A stretch of 64,000 nt of DNA from Alphaproteobacteria bacterium. GTDB taxonomy: Bacteria; Pseudomonadota; Alphaproteobacteria; Ferrovibrionales; Ferrovibrionaceae. Both the position numbers and the translations under genes were made by a program. Shown here piece after piece: positions 42,606 through 61,874 of the stretch (position 1 is the first letter of the stretch; each line of letters begins with the position of its first letter). The stretch spans positions 62,001-126,000 of the forward strand of contig JAFKFH010000004.1 in NCBI GenBank assembly GCA_017307375.1. Direction: 5' to 3'. The notes beneath the pieces were generated by a model. That model made no database searches. It worked only from the letters and a program-made list of their open reading frames with translations, and was not told the origin of the DNA.

Positions 42606-43124
42606 TCAACCCGGCTCCAGCAGGCAGCGCAGCCCGGCCAGCAGCTGGACCGGGGTGGGCGGGCAGCCCGGAATGACCAGATCGACCTGGGTGAACGACG
42701 ACAGCGGCCCGGCCACGCCATAGGCGCCGGCGAATACCCCGGTCCCGGCGGCGCAGTCGCCGACGGCGACCACCCATTTCGGATCCGGCGTCGCCTCGAT
42801 CGCCCGGTGCAGCGCCTCGCGCATGTTGGTCGTGACCGGCCCGGTCACCAGCAACACGTCGGCGTGGCGGGGCGAGGCGACGAACTTCAGGCCGAGCCGT
42901 TCCAGGTCGTGGAAGGCATTGGCCAGGGCATGCAGTTCGAGTTCGCAGCCGTTGCACGACCCGGCGTCGACGGCGCGCAGCGCCAGCGACCGGCCGAGCC
43001 GCCGGCGGGCCGCCGAGTCCACGGCGGCTGCCAGCTGTGCCATGCCGGCAGGATCGGCGGGCGGCGCCCCCTCGGTCAGGCTGGGCGCGAACAGGCGGCG
43101 CAAGGTGATCGGCCACTGGCTCAC
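42606..43124 (-). CDS. hyfI: Hydrogenase-4-like small subunit (HyfI/NuoB family)
   Basis: The product is 172 residues from a GTG at 43124 that overlaps the hyfG stop as GTGA. It belongs to the NuoB/HycG/HyfI family that holds the proximal [4Fe-4S] cluster: the ligand cysteines are visible in SCNGCELELHAL, GDCAAGTG and IPGCPPTP. It docks against the large subunit at the base of a membrane arm and would deliver electrons at the site corresponding to N2 of complex I. The NuoB-type motif is intact even though the large subunit lacks nickel ligands. Confidence 0.88.
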   Translation of the reverse strand: MSQWPITLRRLFAPSLTEGAPPADPAGMAQLAAAVDSAARRRLGRSLALRAVDAGSCNGCELELHALANAFHDLERLGLKFVASPRHADVLLVTGPVTTNMREALHRAIEATPDPKWVVAVGDCAAGTGVFAGAYGVAGPLSSFTQVDLVIPGCPPTPVQLLAGLRCLLEPG

Positions 43125-44653
43125 AGGTCGACCCCGGCATAGGAACAGTTGAAGCTTTTGTTGCAGACGGGGAAGTCGGCGATGATGTTGCCCTCGATCG
43201 CGGCTTCCAGCAGCGGCCATTGGAACCAGCTGGGGTCGCGGGGGTGGCAGCGGCCGACCCTTCCGGCGGCGTCGAGCCGTACCCAGGTCATGATCTCGCC
43301 GCGGAAGCCTTCGACCAGGGCCAGGCCCTCGCCGGCGCGGGCCGGCATGGCCACGGCGATCGGCCCGCCCGGCAGGCCGTCGAGCAACGCGTCGATCAGG
43401 TCGAGACTGGCCTCGACCTCGCGGATCCGCACCCAGACCCGGGCGTTGACGTCGCCTTCGCCGAACAGCGGTATCGGCCAGTCGAGCTTGTCGTAGGGCG
43501 GGTAGGGGGCGGCCTTGCGGGCATCGACCGCCCGCAGCGACGCGCGGCCGACGAAACCACCCGCCGCGAAGCGATGGACCAGTTCGGGCCGGACCGTGCC
43601 GGTGCCGACCAGGCGGTCGGCGAGGCTCGCCTGATTGTCGTAGACGTCGATCAGCTTGCGGAACGCGGGCCGGATACCATGCACCAGCCGGCGCAGGACG
43701 CCGACCTGGTCGGCGTCGATATCGCCGGCGACGCCGCCCGGCACGATCCGGTCGAACATCAGGCGGTGGCCGAAGCACGCGGCGGCGGCGCGCAGGCAGC
43801 GTTCGCGCAAGACCCCGCATTCGGCGGACATGAAGGCATAGGCGACATCGTTGCAGATCGCCCCGATGTCGCCGAGGTGATTGGCGATGCGCTCGAGTTC
43901 GGCCATCACGGCGCGCAACCAGTCGGCCCGCGGCGGCGGGCGGATGTCGGCCGCGGCCTCGGCGGCACGGGCGAAGGCCAGGGCATGGGCCACCGCGCTG
44001 TCGCCCGAGATCCGGCAGGCGAGCCGCGCTGCATCGGCCGGGGCCAGCCCTTGCATCAGGCTCTCGATGCCCTTGTGCAGCCAGCCGAGCCGGGCTTCCA
44101 GCCGCACCACGGTTTCGCCGTTGGCGGTGAAGCGGAAATGGCCGGGTTCGATGATGCCGGCGTGGATCGGCCCCACGGGAACCTGGTGGAGCCCGTCGCC
44201 GGTGGCGGGCAGGAAGGCATAGGCCTCGGCCGTCGGGGCATCGGGCGGCGTCGCGACCGGATGGGGCGACAGCGGCCGGCGATCGGGCCAGCGCCCATGG
44301 TCGAGCCACGGGCGGGTATCGACCGCACCATCGGCCTCATGCCCCCAGAGATCGCGGATCACGCGTTCCAGGCGGATCGCACCGGGCCTGACCGGCGACA
44401 CCGCGGGATAGCGGCCGTCGATCACGGGCACGCTGGCGACGGCGACGCCGCCCTCGACCTCGTCGCGCAGGGCCATGTGGATCCAGTCGACATCGGCCCA
44501 CAGGCCCAGCAACGACCAGTCGGCCTCGGCCATGCGCTCGACCAGCAGCCGCCAGGCCGGCTGGTCGAGCTCGAAGCGGGTGCAGGGCCGATGCCAGGTG
44601 ACGATGGTGGCCGGGGCAAGATAGGTCAGCAGGTCGTCGGCCATGGCCCTCAT
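43121..44653 (-). CDS. hyfG: Hydrogenase-4-like large subunit without nickel-binding cysteines (Ehr type)
   Basis: The product is 510 residues and fuses a NuoC-like N-terminus with a NuoD/HycE-like body. In [NiFe] hydrogenases the site is held by CxxC pairs at RVCGICG and DPCxxC. Here the first reads R-I-S-G-D-S-A, with Ser216 and Ser219 replacing both Cys, and the C-terminus ends DFPVCNKSFNCSYAGVDL, with Cys497 and Cys503 five residues apart instead of CxxC. No mature nickel site is possible, so this is not a hydrogenase. It resembles the 'energy-converting hydrogenase-related' (Ehr) proteins, an evolutionary link between hydrogenases and complex I. Its electron acceptor is unknown. Confidence 0.85.
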   Translation of the reverse strand: MRAMADDLLTYLAPATIVTWHRPCTRFELDQPAWRLLVERMAEADWSLLGLWADVDWIHMALRDEVEGGVAVASVPVIDGRYPAVSPVRPGAIRLERVIRDLWGHEADGAVDTRPWLDHGRWPDRRPLSPHPVATPPDAPTAEAYAFLPATGDGLHQVPVGPIHAGIIEPGHFRFTANGETVVRLEARLGWLHKGIESLMQGLAPADAARLACRISGDSAVAHALAFARAAEAAADIRPPPRADWLRAVMAELERIANHLGDIGAICNDVAYAFMSAECGVLRERCLRAAAACFGHRLMFDRIVPGGVAGDIDADQVGVLRRLVHGIRPAFRKLIDVYDNQASLADRLVGTGTVRPELVHRFAAGGFVGRASLRAVDARKAAPYPPYDKLDWPIPLFGEGDVNARVWVRIREVEASLDLIDALLDGLPGGPIAVAMPARAGEGLALVEGFRGEIMTWVRLDAAGRVGRCHPRDPSWFQWPLLEAAIEGNIIADFPVCNKSFNCSYAGVDL

Positions 44654-46083
44654 CCCAGCATGCCCGCGATCTGCCGCAACCAGCCGACCAGCGGCGGCGG
44701 CAGGTACAGCCCCGCCGCCAGCACCAGCGCGAGATGGAGGTAGAGCGGTAGCGGCGGTGCGACGCGCAGATCCTTGGCGCCCTCGGGCGCGGGGGCGAAG
44801 GCGATCGACTGCAGATGCCGGATCAGGCCGCCGAAGGCGAGCAGCAGGCCCACGACGATCGCGGCGGCCAGCCAGGGCATGTGTTCGACCGCCGCGGTGA
44901 CCAGCATGAATTCGGCGGCAAAGATCCCGAACGGCGGCAGGCCCGCGATCGCCAGCACCGCGACGACCAAGCCCCAGCCGATCGCCGGATGGCGCGCGAC
45001 TGCGCCGGACAATGCCCGGATTTCCTGGCTGCCGCGCGACTGCGCCAGGCTGCCGACCGCGAAGAAAATCGCCGACTTGGTCAATGCGTGCATCGCCATG
45101 TGCAGCAGCCCGGCAAAGTTCGCGACCGGCCCGCCGATGCCGAAGGCGAGGGTGACGATGCCCATATGCTCGATCGACGAATAGGAGAACAGCTTCTTCA
45201 CGTCGCGCCGGCGATAGAGCGCGGCGCCGGCCACCAGCAGCGACAACAGGCCCAGCGCGATCATCAGCGGCCCGGTCGCGAGCGCCTGCGGATTGGCGCC
45301 GAGCAGCATCTTGAAACGCAAGAGTGCATAGAGCGCGACGTTGAGCAGCAGCCCGGACAGCACCGCCGAGATCGGCGTCGGCCCCTCGGCATGGGCGTCG
45401 GGCAGCCAGGCATGCAGCGGCACCAGCCCGGCCTTGGTGCCATAGCCGATCAGCAGGAAGACGAAGGCGATGTCGAGGATGGCGCCGTCGAAACGCGGCG
45501 CACGCAGCTGCAGCTCGGTCCAGGCCATGGCCTCGATGCCATGGAACTGCGCGGTCTGGGCGGCGAGGTAGACCAGGATGGTGCCGAACAGCGCCAGCGC
45601 GATGCCGACACCGCAGAGGATGAAATACTTCCATGCCGCCTCGATCGCCGGCTTGGTGCGGTAGAGCGAGACCATCAGTGCCGTGGTCAGCGTGGCGCCC
45701 TCGACCGCGACCCACATCAGCCCGATGTTGTTGGCGGTCAGCGCCAGCAGCATCGTCGCCATGAACGCCTGGAACATCGCATGGTAGAAGCGGATCTGCC
45801 AGGGGGCGAGCTGGCGGTGCCGCTGTTCGTGGCCGAGATAGCCGGCCGAATAGAGCGACGTGGTGAAGCCGGCGAAGGCGGTCAGCAGGATCAGATAGGC
45901 GTTGAGGTCGTCGACGAAGAACAGCGCGTCGGCAGTCCGCTCGCCCAGCGCCACGGCGATTGCCACACAGAAAGTCAGGCCCGAGGCCGCGATATTGCCG
46001 GCGGCGCCGGCGCGATAGCCCGGCAGCAGCGCCAGCAGCGCCGCGGCCGCGACGGGCAGGCCGAGCAGGGCCAGGATCGTCAT
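44650..46083 (-). CDS. hyfF: Hydrogenase-4-like antiporter-type subunit (HyfF/NuoL-M-N family)
   Basis: The product is 477 residues with about 13-14 membrane helices. It contains the proton-channel landmarks of the family: WVAVEGATLTTALMVSL (Glu in helix 5 type position), GYGTKAGLVPLHAWLPDAHAEGPTPISAVLSG (Lys in helix 7) and LFSYSSIEHMGIVTL. It likely moves protons or Na+ together with the other membrane subunits. Overlaps both neighbours by 4 nt. Confidence 0.9.
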   Translation of the reverse strand: MTILALLGLPVAAAALLALLPGYRAGAAGNIAASGLTFCVAIAVALGERTADALFFVDDLNAYLILLTAFAGFTTSLYSAGYLGHEQRHRQLAPWQIRFYHAMFQAFMATMLLALTANNIGLMWVAVEGATLTTALMVSLYRTKPAIEAAWKYFILCGVGIALALFGTILVYLAAQTAQFHGIEAMAWTELQLRAPRFDGAILDIAFVFLLIGYGTKAGLVPLHAWLPDAHAEGPTPISAVLSGLLLNVALYALLRFKMLLGANPQALATGPLMIALGLLSLLVAGAALYRRRDVKKLFSYSSIEHMGIVTLAFGIGGPVANFAGLLHMAMHALTKSAIFFAVGSLAQSRGSQEIRALSGAVARHPAIGWGLVVAVLAIAGLPPFGIFAAEFMLVTAAVEHMPWLAAAIVVGLLLAFGGLIRHLQSIAFAPAPEGAKDLRVAPPLPLYLHLALVLAAGLYLPPPLVGWLRQIAGMLG

Positions 46084-46742
46084 GGTCCGCGATCCCGCAC
46101 ATCTTCGAGGTAGTGCAGCTCGAGACTGTCGAAGCGCTCGCGGATCTGGAAGAAGAACACCCCGAAGATCAGGAAGGCGACCAGGACCGAGAAGGCCACG
46201 CTCATCTCGACGACGAGCGGCATGCCCTGGACGCCGACGGCGGCGAGGATCAGGCCGTTCTCCAGGCTCATGAACCCGATCACCTGGGTGACGGCATTGC
46301 GCCGGGTGATCATCATCAGCAGGCCAAGCAGGACCACGGCGAGCGCGATGGCGATGATCTCGCGGGTCAGCAGCGCCGAGCCGGCGGCGATCGGCAGCAC
46401 CAGCAGGATGGTCAGCGCCACCAGCGCGACCCCGGCCAGCATCGTCGGGGCGATGCCCAGCGCCGTCTCGATCGTGCGATGAATGCCGAGCCGGCGGATG
46501 ATGCGGTTCAGGGCCACCGGGATCACGACGGTCTTCAGCCCGAAGGCGATCGCCGCCGTCAGGTAGAGATGCGTGGCCGCCTGGACATGGGCCTGCCAGG
46601 CGGCGGCCAGCGCGATCACCAGGCCCTGGATCGCGAAGACCTTGACGACCGCCGACAGCCGCCGCTGGTAGAGCAGGGCAAAGGACATCAGCAGCGTCGT
46701 GCCGGCGAGCAGATGGGCGACGTCGTAGGCGAGCCCGGCCAT
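46080..46742 (-). CDS. hyfE: Hydrogenase-4-like membrane subunit (HyfE, NuoK-like C-terminus)
   Basis: The product is 220 residues with about seven membrane helices. The C-terminal half (AIALAVVLLGLLMMITRRNAVTQVIGFMSLENGLILAAVGVQGMPLVVEM) has the NuoK-like pattern with Glu in helices that form part of the proton path. It is 2 nt from hyfC and overlaps hyfF. Confidence 0.88.
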   Translation of the reverse strand: MAGLAYDVAHLLAGTTLLMSFALLYQRRLSAVVKVFAIQGLVIALAAAWQAHVQAATHLYLTAAIAFGLKTVVIPVALNRIIRRLGIHRTIETALGIAPTMLAGVALVALTILLVLPIAAGSALLTREIIAIALAVVLLGLLMMITRRNAVTQVIGFMSLENGLILAAVGVQGMPLVVEMSVAFSVLVAFLIFGVFFFQIRERFDSLELHYLEDVRDRGP

Positions 46743-46744
46743 CG

Positions 46745-47677
46745 TCAGAACCCGTGGCTGACGTAGAGATAGATGGTGGCGAGCATGCCCAGCACCACCG
46801 CGCCGCCGAGGAACTCCGGATAGCGGAAGACGCGCATCTTGGCGATGCCGACCTCGAACAGGGCCAGCGCCACTGCACCCGCCGCCAGCTTGGCGACGAA
46901 GATCGGCAGGGCCAGGGCCGTCAGCGCCGCGCCGGCCATGCCGAACGGCACGAACAGCGCCTGGATCAGGCTGAGCCAGACCACCAGCTTGAGCATCGAA
47001 GCCAGTTCGATGGCGGCGAGATGGCGCCCCGAATAGTCGAGCACCATGGCTTCGTGCACCATGGTCAGTTCGAGATGGGTCGCCGGGTTGTCGATCGGGA
47101 TCCGGCCGTTTTCGGCGACCGCGACGATGACGATGGCGACCAGCGCCATGCCGAGGCTGACGCGCAGGCCGACGGGCTGGGCAATGAAATGGGCCGAGAT
47201 TGCCGGCAGCGACGTGGTGTGGACCAGCACCGCGACGGTGAACACGACCAGCAGCATCGCCGGTTCGGCCAGCGCGCCGATCATCAGCTCGCGGCTGCTG
47301 CCGATGCCGCCGAAGGCGGTGCCGGCGTCGAGCCCGGCCAGCGCCAGCAGGAAGCGCGACAGGCCGAGGATGCCGGCGAGCACGATCAGGTCGCCGGCCT
47401 GGGCCAGCGGCAGGTCATAGGTGAAGGCCGGCACCATCGCGGCGGCCAGCCAGATCGCGGCCAGCTGCAGGTAGGGTACCGCCGTGTAGAGCGGGCCGGA
47501 GGTTTCCGCCACGATGGGCGTCTTCAGCATCAGCCGGCGCAGGTCGCGATAGGGTTGCCACGGGGCAGGACCGGCGCGGCCCAGCGCCCGCGCCTTCACC
47601 CAGCGCACCAGGCCGGTGATCGCGGGTGCCAGCGCAACGATCAGCACCAGATGGACGACCTGGGCAATCACGGTCAT
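46745..47677 (-). CDS. hyfC: Hydrogenase-4-like membrane subunit (HyfC/NuoH family)
   Basis: The product is 310 residues from the ATG at 47677, with about eight membrane helices. It has the NuoH-type acidic loop near ENGRIPIDNPATHLELTMVHEAMVLDYSG, equivalent to the EGE/quinone-channel region of complex I. As the anchor protein it links the soluble module to the antiporter-type subunits. Overlaps the hyfB stop by 4 nt. Confidence 0.9.
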   Translation of the reverse strand: MTVIAQVVHLVLIVALAPAITGLVRWVKARALGRAGPAPWQPYRDLRRLMLKTPIVAETSGPLYTAVPYLQLAAIWLAAAMVPAFTYDLPLAQAGDLIVLAGILGLSRFLLALAGLDAGTAFGGIGSSRELMIGALAEPAMLLVVFTVAVLVHTTSLPAISAHFIAQPVGLRVSLGMALVAIVIVAVAENGRIPIDNPATHLELTMVHEAMVLDYSGRHLAAIELASMLKLVVWLSLIQALFVPFGMAGAALTALALPIFVAKLAAGAVALALFEVGIAKMRVFRYPEFLGGAVVLGMLATIYLYVSHGF

Positions 47678-49662
47678 CGGCTGACCACCACGGCTGCCAG
47701 CAGGATCACCAGGGCTGCAAACATCAGCATCAGATGGCCGCGGATGGTCAACTGCTGCAGCCGCGCCGCCTGGGTCGCGACCAGCTCGATCCCCTGGTCG
47801 ATCCGGAGATAGATCCCCTGCCACAGCCGATCGGCGACGGCGAGCGTGTGCCGCGCCGGCGCCATGTCGCCGGGTTCGGGCATGGCCACGCTTTCGCGTG
47901 CGACGAACGCCGTCCGGCCGAATACCCGGCGCAGCGGCTGGGTCAGGCTGGCGGCGGTATACTGCGTCGCGGGCCTGATATCGGGAAAACCGCAATCCCA
48001 GGCCGGCGCCCGCCGCGCCGGCATCGGCGACAGCCGCCCGGCCGCCATCAGCACGATGGCCGCAAGGGCCAGGCCGGCCAGCGCCAGTGCGGTGGCCACG
48101 TAGGCCGTGTTCCCGGCAACCAGGCTGGCAAAGGGCAGGGCGACCACCGGGGCGGCCGGCGGCCCCAGCATCTGGACGACCGCCGGTCCGGCCAGCCCCG
48201 CGACCGCCGCCGGGAACAGTCCGAACAGCAGGCAGAGCCCCGCTGCCACCGCCATCGCCAGCCGCATCGCCGGCGCCACCTCATGCGCGGCCGCTGCCGC
48301 AGGGCTGCGCGGTCGGCCGAGGAAGGCGATGCCGTAGAGCCGGCAGGCGGCGGCGGCGGCGAGCGCCGCGGTCAGCGCGAAGGCGCCCGCCACCACCGGC
48401 AGGATGAACTTCAGCATGGGCGACGGCAGGGCGATACCGCCGATCAGCGCCTGGAACAGCAGCCATTCGCCGGCAAACCCGTTGAGCGGCGGCAGGGCGG
48501 CGAGCGCCAGTGCTGCGACCAGGAAGACCCAGCCGGTCTGGGGCATCACCCTGCCCAGCCCGCCCAGTTGTTCGAGGTCGCGCGAGCCGGTGGCGTGCAG
48601 CACCGCGCCGGCCCCCATGAACGACAGCGACTTGAACAGCGCGTGATTGAGCGCGTGGACCAGCGCGGCCGTCAGCGCAAGCCCGGCAAGGGCCGCAAGG
48701 CCCGACCCGGCGAACGCGAGGCTCAGCCCCAGCGCACCGGCGATGATGCCGATATTCTCGATCGTCGACCAGGCCAGCGCCGTTTTCATGTCGCGCTCGA
48801 TCAGCGCGAACAGGACGCCGACCAGTGCCGTGCCGGCACCGAGGACCAGCAGGATGCCGCCCCACCACCAGGCCGGCTGGCCGTTCAGGTCGAAGACGAG
48901 CCGGATCACGGCATAGAGGGCGATCTTGGTCATCGCCCCCGACATCAGCGCCGAGACGTGGCTGGGCGCCGCCGGGTGCGCCAGCGGCAGCCAGGCATGC
49001 AGCGGCACCAGTCCCGCCTTCGACCCCGCGCCGAACAGGACCAGCACGAAGACCACGAGGCTGCCGGCCCGCTGCGCGCGCAAGGCGGCGAAGTCATACC
49101 GATCGAGGCCGCCGGCCATCAGGCCGAAGGCGACGAGCAGCGCCAGCGCGCCCGCAACGGCCATGACCAGGTAGATCTGCGCCGCCCGGCGGGCCGCGGG
49201 ATCGTCGGGCCGGGCCAGGATCAGCGCCCAGGAGGCGAGCGACATGAATTCCCAGGCGACCAGGAACGAGAAGGCGTCGGCCGCCAGCGGCACCAGGTTC
49301 AGGCCGAACAGAAACAATTGAAAAGGCACCAGCCGACGCGCCGGCTGCGCCTCGCCGTGTTCATGCGCCACGGCATAGAGCGAGACGATCGCCCCGACGA
49401 GGTTGACGACCAGGAGGAAATAGGCCGAAAGCGGGTCGAGGGCGAGAACGGTCCAGCCCAGCGCGAAACCGATCGGCAGCCGCAGCTGTTCGGCCGCCGG
49501 GGTCCACAGCGCAGCCAGCGCCATCGCGGCATTGGCGGCGCACAGGATGGTCGAGCCGAGGCAGACGATCGCGGTTGCACGCGCGCCCAGCCGGATGGCG
49601 GCGAGGCCGAGGCCCGCCAGCACGAGAAAGCCGAGATCGGCGAGGGCGAGGCCCGTCAGCAT
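47674..49662 (-). CDS. hyfB: Hydrogenase-4-like antiporter-type subunit (HyfB/NuoL family)
   Basis: The product is 662 residues with about 15 membrane helices. Landmarks are FLVAWEFMSLASWALIL (Glu), GAGSKAGLVPLHAWLPLAHPAAPSHVSALMSGAMTKIALY (Lys and His line) and LAWSTIENIGIIAGALG. The long C-terminus, with WDCGFPDIRPATQYTAASLTQPLRRVFG, is typical of HyfB. It is the first gene of the operon. The operon order B-C-E-F-G-I lacks HyfA, HyfD and the ferredoxin-like HyfH of Escherichia coli hydrogenase-4. Confidence 0.92.
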   Translation of the reverse strand: MLTGLALADLGFLVLAGLGLAAIRLGARATAIVCLGSTILCAANAAMALAALWTPAAEQLRLPIGFALGWTVLALDPLSAYFLLVVNLVGAIVSLYAVAHEHGEAQPARRLVPFQLFLFGLNLVPLAADAFSFLVAWEFMSLASWALILARPDDPAARRAAQIYLVMAVAGALALLVAFGLMAGGLDRYDFAALRAQRAGSLVVFVLVLFGAGSKAGLVPLHAWLPLAHPAAPSHVSALMSGAMTKIALYAVIRLVFDLNGQPAWWWGGILLVLGAGTALVGVLFALIERDMKTALAWSTIENIGIIAGALGLSLAFAGSGLAALAGLALTAALVHALNHALFKSLSFMGAGAVLHATGSRDLEQLGGLGRVMPQTGWVFLVAALALAALPPLNGFAGEWLLFQALIGGIALPSPMLKFILPVVAGAFALTAALAAAAACRLYGIAFLGRPRSPAAAAAHEVAPAMRLAMAVAAGLCLLFGLFPAAVAGLAGPAVVQMLGPPAAPVVALPFASLVAGNTAYVATALALAGLALAAIVLMAAGRLSPMPARRAPAWDCGFPDIRPATQYTAASLTQPLRRVFGRTAFVARESVAMPEPGDMAPARHTLAVADRLWQGIYLRIDQGIELVATQAARLQQLTIRGHLMLMFAALVILLAAVVVSR

Positions 49663-59485: not shown

Positions 59486-60031
59486 ATGAGCCAGCTTCAG
59501 CCCGTATCCGGCAGCCAGTCCCCGGTCCCGGTCTCGCAGGACGCCTATTTCAAGGACGTCTCGGACGAACTGGCCGACAAGGGGTTCGTCGTCACCAATC
59601 TCGACAAGCTGGTCAACTGGGCGCGCACCGGCTCGCTGTGGCCGATGACCTTCGGCCTGGCCTGCTGTGCCGTCGAGATGATCCATGCCTACATGGCGCG
59701 CTACGATCTCGACCGCTTCGGCACCATGCCGCGCGCCTCGCCCCGCCAGTCCGACGTGATGATCGTGGCCGGGACGCTGACCAACAAGATGGCGCCGGCG
59801 CTGCGCAAGGTCTACGACCAGATGGCCGAGCCGCGCTACGTCATCTCGATGGGCTCGTGCGCCAATGGCGGCGGCTACTACCATTATTCCTATTCGGTCG
59901 TGCGCGGCTGCGACCGCATCGTGCCCGTCGACGTCTATGTGCCGGGCTGCCCGCCGACGGCCGAGGCGCTGCTCTACGGCATCCTGCTGCTGCAGAAGAA
60001 GATCCGCCGTACCACCACGATCGCGCGCTGA
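59486..60031 (+). CDS. nuoB: NADH-quinone oxidoreductase subunit B
   Basis: The product is 181 residues. It carries the N2 [4Fe-4S] cluster through the cysteines in [18 protein letters not shown] and VPGCPPTAE. It hands electrons to quinone. AGGAG precedes the start. Confidence 0.97.
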
Positions 60032-60695: not shown

Positions 60696-61874
60696 ATGGC
60701 CGATATCCAGATCAACAACTATGCGCTGAACTTCGGGCCGCAGCATCCGGCAGCCCACGGCGTGCTGCGCCTGGTCATCGAGCTCGACGGCGAGGTGATC
60801 GAGCGCTGCGACCCGCATATCGGCCTGCTGCATCGCGGCACCGAGAAGCTGATCGAATACAAGACCTACGTCCAGGCGCTGCCCTATTTCGACCGGCTCG
60901 ACTACGTCGCGCCGATGAACATGGAGCATTCCTACGTCCTGGCGGTCGAGAAGCTGCTGGGCCTCAAGCTGCCCCGGCGCGCGCAGTATATCCGCACGCT
61001 GTTCGCGGAGATCAGCCGGGTGCTGAACCACCTCCTCAACGTCACCACCCAGGCGATGGACGTCGGTGCGACGACGCCGGCGCTGTGGGGCTTCGAGGAG
61101 CGCGAGAAGCTGATGGAGTTCTACGAGCGCGTTTCGGGCGCCCGGCTCCATGCCGCCTATTTCCGTCCGGGCGGGGTTCACCAGGACCTGCCGAAGGGGC
61201 TGGCCGAGGATATTCACGCCTACGTCCCGCGCTGCCTGAAGATCCTCGACGACTTCGAGGAACTGCTGACCGAGAACCGCATCTTCAAGCAGCGCAACGT
61301 CGATATCGGCGTGGTGACGCAACAGGATGCGCTGGACTGGGGCATGACCGGCCCGATGCTCCGTTCGACTGGCGTTGCCTGGGACCTGCGCAAGGCGCAG
61401 CCCTACGAGGTATACGACGAACTCGACTTCGATATTCCCGTCGGCAAGAACGGCGACTGCTACGACCGCTATCTGATCCGCCTGGAGGAGATGCGCCAGT
61501 CACTGTCGATCATCCGCCAGTGCATCGAGAAGATGCCGGACGGGCCGCACTCGACGCTCGACCACAAGGTCGTGCCGCCGGCCCGCGCCGACATGAAGCG
61601 CTCGATGGAATCGCTGATCCATCATTTCAAGCTCTACACCGAAGGCTTCAAGGTGCCGGCGGGCGAGGTCTATGCCGCGACCGAGGCGCCGAAGGGCGAG
61701 TTCGGCGTCTATCTCGTGTCGGACGGGACCAACCGGCCCTATCGCTGCAAGATCCGCTCGCCGTCCTTCGTGCATCTTTCGGCCACGGACTACATGTGCA
61801 AGGGGCACCAGCTGGCGGACGCCGCGGCGATCGTCGGCAGCCTCGATATCGTGTTCGGAGAGATCGACCGATGA
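60696..61874 (+). CDS. nuoD: NADH-quinone oxidoreductase subunit D
   Basis: The product is 392 residues. The 49-kDa subunit pattern is complete: [16 protein letters not shown] (quinone-site His), [26 protein letters not shown] and the C-terminal DIVFGEIDR. It builds the quinone site with NuoB. It is related to the HyfG-like protein at 43121-44653. Confidence 0.97.

Follow-up and report, generated by a model that had tools for sequence, protein, structure and literature searches.

Genes whose products resemble the subunits of hydrogenase 4 raise the question of whether those products can form a hydrogenase at all and, if they cannot, what else the resulting membrane complex might do. Six such genes lie in the 64,000-nucleotide stretch of alphaproteobacterial DNA analysed here, hereafter termed the window. 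They had been predicted to encode an Ehr-like complex that cannot be a hydrogenase and that pumps ions. Ehr (energy-converting hydrogenase-related) complexes are described as a link between hydrogenases and complex I.

Organisation of the operon

The six genes, hyfB-C-E-F-G-I, form tightly packed open reading frames that span positions 49662-42606 on the minus strand:

47674..49662, minus strand: hyfB, antiporter-like membrane subunit, 662 aa; scores above the NCBIfam 'hydrogenase 4 subunit B' cut-off
46745..47677, minus strand: hyfC, NuoH-like membrane subunit, 310 aa; Pfam NADHdh, E 1.8e-29
46080..46742, minus strand: hyfE, HyfE-like membrane subunit, partly NuoK-like, 220 aa
44650..46083, minus strand: hyfF, antiporter-like membrane subunit, 477 aa; scores above the NCBIfam 'hydrogenase 4 subunit F' cut-off
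43121..44653, minus strand: hyfG, Ni-free large subunit, 510 aa; HycE 7z0s_E, E 3.7e-57
42606..43124, minus strand: hyfI, small subunit with a GTG start, 172 aa; Pfam Oxidored_q6, E 1.2e-29

The reading frames overlap by 4 nt at the B/C, E/F, F/G and G/I junctions and are separated by 2 nt at C/E, and the coordinates thus confirm the compact six-gene set that had been described. The hyfE product matches the NCBIfam hydrogenase 4 membrane subunit at E 1.3e-21, yet under its cut-off, and its match to Pfam Oxidored_q2 is weak and also under cut-off. No homologues of HyfA, HyfD or HyfH are found among the six operon genes. Moreover, these contiguous genes encode no ferredoxin-like protein corresponding to the Fe-S subunits HycB/HyfA and HycF/HyfH, and none of the five operon proteins besides HyfI has a Pfam match to an Fe-S family.

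Upstream of the operon and divergent from it lies a malonyl-CoA decarboxylase gene (Pfam); of the downstream gene products, one has no match in Pfam and another is a regulator of the AraC type. Neither hycH nor hycI is among the flanking genes examined (Pfam), and a scan for promoters found nothing. A complex I cluster begins ~10 kb away (nuoB, 59486-60031; nuoD, 60696-61874), positions that agree with the claim of a complex I separate from the Ehr-like operon.

Of 145 loci, 120 have all six genes in the order B-C-E-F-G-I; among the 25 that do not, 17 run into the end of a contig. Together with the residue conservation reported below, this argues that the six-gene set is not a product of chance.

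HyfG lacks the nickel site

Four features of HyfG bear on whether it could hold nickel:

43997..44008, minus strand: Ser216-Gly-Asp-Ser219, replacing the first Ni Cys-x2-Cys; aligned to HycE C241/C244
43124..43177, minus strand: Asp493-Leu510 (DFP-x-CNKSFNCSYAGVDL), replacing the second Ni Cys-x2-Cys
43163-43165, minus strand: Cys497
43145-43147, minus strand: Cys503

In the alignment, the Ni ligands C241, C244, C531 and C534 of HycE correspond to Ser216, Ser219, Ser504 and Gly507 of HyfG. Serines 216 and 219 therefore stand where the original prediction had placed them, at the first Ni Cys-x2-Cys. The Cys-x5-Cys that it reported at the C-terminus was also located correctly (Cys497 and Cys503), but these residues are not the second Ni pair. 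That pair is Ser504 and Gly507, and thus all four Ni positions are lost.

Conservation was assessed over 140 distinct HyfG sequences, a set that includes that of the window and three motif-less outliers (L092-L094, 28-41% identity). Cysteine occurs at position 219, 504 or 507 in none of them and at position 216 in two. Ser216 is found in 134/140, Asp218 in 137/140 and Ser219 in 125/140. Besides Ser216 and Asp218, the nearly invariant residues are Arg214, Gly507 and Asp509 (each 140/140), Ser500 (139/140) and Asn502 (137/140). Cys497 and Cys503 do not hold up as a feature of the whole family, both being present in 116/140 sequences. In the remaining 24/140 at least one of the two is replaced, for the most part in more distant lineages, whose usual form is NKSFN-Leu-SYSG, and a family-wide requirement for the pair is thereby ruled out. 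The pair may have a role limited to certain clades.

The last residue of HyfG, Leu510, aligns with Arg537 of HycE, after which HycI cuts HycE during maturation (available text of PMC7654741). The last pair of the structural alignment sets HyfG 509 on HycE 536, within a part of the HyfG model (506-510) that is unsure. None of the 140 HyfG sequences has a C-terminal extension past the position of HycE Arg537, although such an assembly peptide is also missing in some group 4 enzymes, e.g. that of Azospirillum thermophilum described below (L223).

The genome that carries the window, rated 100% complete, has no match to HypD; as a positive control, the same search found matches in 4 of 14 control genomes. 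HypD is also missing in 33 of 47 tested carrier genomes, and in 27 of the 41 with at least 90% completeness and at most 5% contamination. These 47 are carriers with at least 51% HyfG identity; carriers at ~42-49% and G015-G017 were left out. With the four Ni positions, the C-terminal processing peptide and HypD all missing, the sequences effectively exclude that the Ehr-like complex is a [NiFe] hydrogenase, as had been claimed. An annotation as 'hydrogenase 4' need not mean H2 metabolism.

Fold of HyfG

Among proteins of solved structure, HycE is the nearest to HyfG in sequence (7z0s_E, with the E-value listed above). The predicted structure of HyfG matches HycE 7z0s_E with Z 41.4 and rmsd 3.3 over 481 aligned residues, and the complex I subunit NuoD (8e9h_D) with Z 40.8 and rmsd 2.0 over 317. 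HyfG is thus predicted to have the HycE/NuoD fold, the two matches being tied. The model is poor at 134-192 and 506-510. When HyfG is aligned to NuoCD of E. coli, Gly217 replaces Tyr273 and Ile168 replaces His224. We take Tyr273 and His224 to be quinone-site residues, and their replacement would mean that the canonical quinone site is absent from HyfG.

Cluster and pump residues are conserved

The putative ligands of a single [4Fe-4S] cluster in HyfI are Cys57, Cys60, Cys124 and Cys154; Cys167 is also present. The first three are kept in 124/124 sequences and Cys154 in 123/124. The 'N2-like' cysteines attributed to HyfI are therefore intact, but the term is loose: Cys57-x2-Cys60 is the hydrogenase-type pattern of E. 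coli HycG, whereas NuoB of the same genome has a tandem Cys-Cys. In HyfF, Glu128, Lys217, Lys336 and Glu391 are kept in 132-133 of 133 sequences, and in HyfB, Glu138, Lys215, Lys344 and Glu399 in 118-119 of 119. On the basis of alignments and established knowledge, we take these glutamates and lysines to be the pump residues of NuoL/M/N. Short, stop-bearing and repeated sequences were left out of all three counts (119 HyfB, 133 HyfF and 124 HyfI). Given that both the cluster cysteines of HyfI and the pump residues of HyfB and HyfF are kept, the six-subunit complex looks like a working redox-driven pump.

Four genomes without hyfI after hyfG (G194, G289, G365 and G358) were tested, and all four have hyfI elsewhere, which rules out its loss in them. 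At one further locus (L193) hyfI was likewise not found behind hyfG. An acetyltransferase-like gene follows hyfG instead of hyfI at L087 (G194), L090 (G365) and L086 (G289), and two of these three loci lack one or both of Cys497 and Cys503.

Distribution and phylogeny of HyfG

At E<=1e-40, HyfG matches were found in 35 of 385 sampled class genomes. Subtracting the three motif-less matches (L092-L094) leaves 32 carriers, among which one (G088) was unread for the motif. The phylum sample gave 77 matches to HyfG out of 398, a figure that includes ~30% hits reaching only residue 506 and resembling true Hyc/Hyf. A scan of the GTDB collection returned at least 589 coding stretches, of which the best 80 were used; Azospirillum, rhizobia and Methylovirgula account for the best 40 plasmid records. 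The counts over 145 loci and the residue counts for HyfG, HyfB, HyfF and HyfI refer to loci or distinct sequences and not to species; some genomes appear once from each of two collections, and the sampling is weighted to Alphaproteobacteria.

In a tree of 52 rows, HyfG forms a clade of 44 (100/99), outside which lie HycE/HyfG, an Ech-type enzyme, NuoD and a Mycobacterium branderi/Caballeronia pair; several of the reference branches, HycE and NuoD among them, are long, and long branches may meet. The outliers L092-L094 fall inside the 44-row clade. They are distant HyfG relatives (28-41%) without the SGDS motif, from genomes G043, G174 and G348, and at two of the three only G and I homologues were found.

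Relationship to known complexes

Ehr complexes are described as lacking Ni- and Fe-coordinating residues, with a suspected coupling of redox to charge translocation (available part of PMC6349859), and as lacking CxxC motifs, with function unknown (accessible text of PMC10284858). In Geobacter, Ehr subunits were higher on formate than in hydrogen conditions (excerpts of PMC7894505). As here, Ehr complexes combine subunits like those of complex I and group 4 enzymes with antiporter-like subunits and have lost the Ni-coordinating residues. The corresponding features in the window are a Ni-less large subunit of the group 4/NuoD kind and HyfB and HyfF with their pump residues. The complex fits the described Ehr class, an assignment made by features, and the Ehr-like framing of the original prediction is borne out by the lost Ni residues and the antiporter-like subunits. 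Several published Ehr examples are discussed together with formate dehydrogenase; none recurs by the operon in the 136-locus neighbour survey given below.

Formate hydrogenlyase-1 (Hyc) and hydrogenase-4 (Hyf) of E. coli have homologues of HyfB, C, E, F, G and I. To these HyfG is 28-29% identical, with the same fold, and HyfI 40%; unlike them, the operon is without HyfA/D/H, the Ni ligands and the C-terminal peptide. Complex I (NuoB/D/H/K/L/M/N) has the large-subunit fold and pump residues in common with the complex here, and the end of HyfG is that of NuoD in aligned position. However, there is no NADH or NuoI module, HyfG has Gly217/Ile168 for the quinone-site Tyr/His, and HyfI has Cys-x2-Cys and not the tandem Cys-Cys.

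Literature searches, with subscription papers outside their scope, found no published work on the function of this HyfG clade, and the available part of a Gallionellaceae pangenome paper (PMC10734462) does not mention the complex. Four results had no counterpart in what these searches brought up: the number of carriers without HypD, a HyfG that ends where HycE is cleaved, a cysteine pair restricted to certain clades, and a ferredoxin fused to the small subunit of a related Ni-free complex. The complex is real, conserved and Ehr-like, and comes from a widespread, already described family.

Genes neighbouring the operon

In a survey of called genes within 7 kb of the operon at 136 loci, no recurrent redox enzyme was recognised. 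In 35 of 145 loci antisense frames caused the gene caller to miss hyfG, and therefore this negative carries only moderate weight. Presumed duplicates were dropped by hand (L127, L133, L146, L150, L165, L185 and L189), L133 alone being a confirmed duplicate. A small HTH_3-type gene recurs near the operon, detected by tblastn in 60/145 loci and in 43 loci of the neighbour survey. It is nearly always upstream of hyfB on the same strand, as at L009:8563-8859, where it overlaps hyfB by 4 nt, and at L012:8605-8850; both proteins tested contain HTH_3. The window itself lacks this gene. The remaining clusters that recur as neighbours resemble ordinary transporters, regulators or shared genus synteny, the Pfam check covering the two HTH proteins.

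Nitrogenase was considered as a partner and rejected: nifH scored above cut-off in 11/385 class genomes, among them 4/32 carriers (G052, G060, G068 and G362), which is an excess, but 28/32 lack it. G358 has two nifH pieces below cut-off. An N-type ATPase was also rejected, being found in 1/145 loci and above cut-off in 1/26 carrier genomes (of the 47). On plasmid pHY1 of Methylovirgula sp. HY1 (L012:1672-8234), an F-type ATPase operon, which we read as N-type, is divergent from the six genes.

A ferredoxin fusion in related nickel-free sets

On a plasmid of Caballeronia sp. SBC1, a two-cluster ferredoxin domain is fused to an intact HyfI-like domain (L224:8092-8901). The fusion is present at full length and at least 75% identity in two Caballeronia and three Burkholderia plasmid records. 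The Caballeronia set resembles the operon here in its six homologous genes, its missing Ni ligands and its intact HyfI-like cysteines. The fusion sets differ from it in their order (C-E-F-G-I-B), in the fused ferredoxin and in their separate branch of the tree.

Plasmid pJCM12687 of M. branderi carries another Ni-free six-gene set, also in the order C-E-F-G-I-B as against B-C-E-F-G-I in the window, whose HyfG is 32% identical to ours. Its HyfI-like protein (L220:10501-11295) has a single-cluster ferredoxin-like front part, and its four cluster cysteine positions are Asn, Asp, Asp and Ala. This set is presumably a relative of the mycobacterial rv0082-rv0087 locus. In the accessible text of PMC6901956, rv0082-rv0087 is a six-gene set annotated as hycD/P/Q/E-like, and so matches the operon in gene number and hydrogenase-like annotation, the sequence comparison being via L220 alone.

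From the ferredoxin domain fused to a HyfI-like domain in a related set we guess that a ferredoxin-like donor acts on HyfI. By analogy, the fusion gives a hint that ferredoxin may dock on HyfI in the unfused complexes.

A possible mechanism

Following the original prediction, we infer ion pumping with an electron carrier other than H2/H+, from a sequence that reveals neither donor nor acceptor. There is, in our estimation, an even chance that this nickel-free, six-subunit, Ehr-type member of the complex I/group 4 hydrogenase superfamily is an ion pump fed by ferredoxin. The donor, acceptor, direction and ion that we infer would operate as follows. A soluble low-potential carrier, most likely ferredoxin, would dock on the face of HyfI bared by the missing HyfH/NuoI. 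Electrons would enter the lone [4Fe-4S] cluster of HyfI and pass to a small acceptor in a rebuilt HyfG pocket, formed by Arg214, Ser216-Gly-Asp-Ser219 and the C-terminal NKSFN-x-SYSG-x-D segment. The redox reaction would then drive ions via HyfC/E/F/B. The simplest candidate for the acceptor is a quinone in a non-canonical site. Against the ferredoxin-fed pump are the lack of a redox partner gene recurring by the operon in the 136-locus survey, the replacement of the canonical quinone residues (Gly217, Ile168), the occurrence of the fusion in another clade and the M. branderi relative without cluster cysteines.

A more inclusive statement, that the operon encodes a nickel-free respiratory complex either fed by ferredoxin or making it, which has one Fe-S cluster and an acceptor pocket of a new kind and works beside complex I, is put forward tentatively, at somewhat less than even likelihood. 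Were it true, the acceptor pocket would be neither a NiFe site nor the quinone site of complex I, the complex would occur in up to ~8% of sampled class genomes, and the respiratory chain of many soil, plant-associated and aquatic bacteria would have a second point of entry or exit that has gone unrecognised. Tractable bacteria of the genera Azospirillum and Rhizobium carry the complex, among them Azospirillum brasilense and Rhizobium johnstonii 3841; it requires no nickel machinery and has a minimal Fe-S chain. Together with the fusion-based hypothesis for the donor, this makes the reaction directly testable.

Alternatively, identical parts could be used in reverse, with a quinol-like donor in the pocket of HyfG giving up electrons that the ion gradient pushes uphill to ferredoxin on HyfI, which would supply low-potential reductant. 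The excess of nifH in carriers (above cut-off in 4/32, against 7/353 other class genomes, uncorrected for kinship) would be consistent with such a role. However, 28/32 carriers, including the genome of the window, have no nifH above cut-off, and nothing in the sequence fixes the direction. We regard reverse operation as rather unlikely.

A third reading is that of a non-redox, or merely redox-gated, module handling ions or CO2, in which HyfG binds an unreduced substrate and the membrane arm is complex I-like. HyfG has neither a Ni site nor canonical quinone residues, no donor gene is linked, and the small subunit of the distant M. branderi set lacks its four cluster cysteines, all of which would suit such a module. 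Yet the cluster cysteines of HyfI are kept in 123-124 of 124 sequences, and in 4/4 tested genomes with no hyfI behind hyfG the gene is found elsewhere. Such a module is therefore improbable.

The ferredoxin-fed pump has also to be set against decay. The lost Ni ligands and a patchy presence, in 5/18 genomes of the order sample including that of the window, might suggest a non-functional remnant of a hydrogenase, but the six overlapping frames are intact and motifs and cofactor residues are conserved over 119-140 sequences, which makes a remnant very improbable. Least credible of all, with barely any likelihood, is a genuine [NiFe] hydrogenase whose Ni ligands are unusual: the Hyf-type names and HycE-like fold are outweighed by the loss of four Ni positions and of the C-terminal peptide and by the absence of HypD from this genome and 33/47 carrier genomes.

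By contrast, a Rhodovastum plasmid has a full hyf set with genes for HycH, HycI and FdhD. Plasmid unnamed2 of A. thermophilum (L223:1-8074) encodes a group 4-like enzyme whose RVCGIC and DPCISC motifs are intact, adjoining an aldehyde ferredoxin oxidoreductase gene, and the same strain has the Ni-free complex on a different plasmid.
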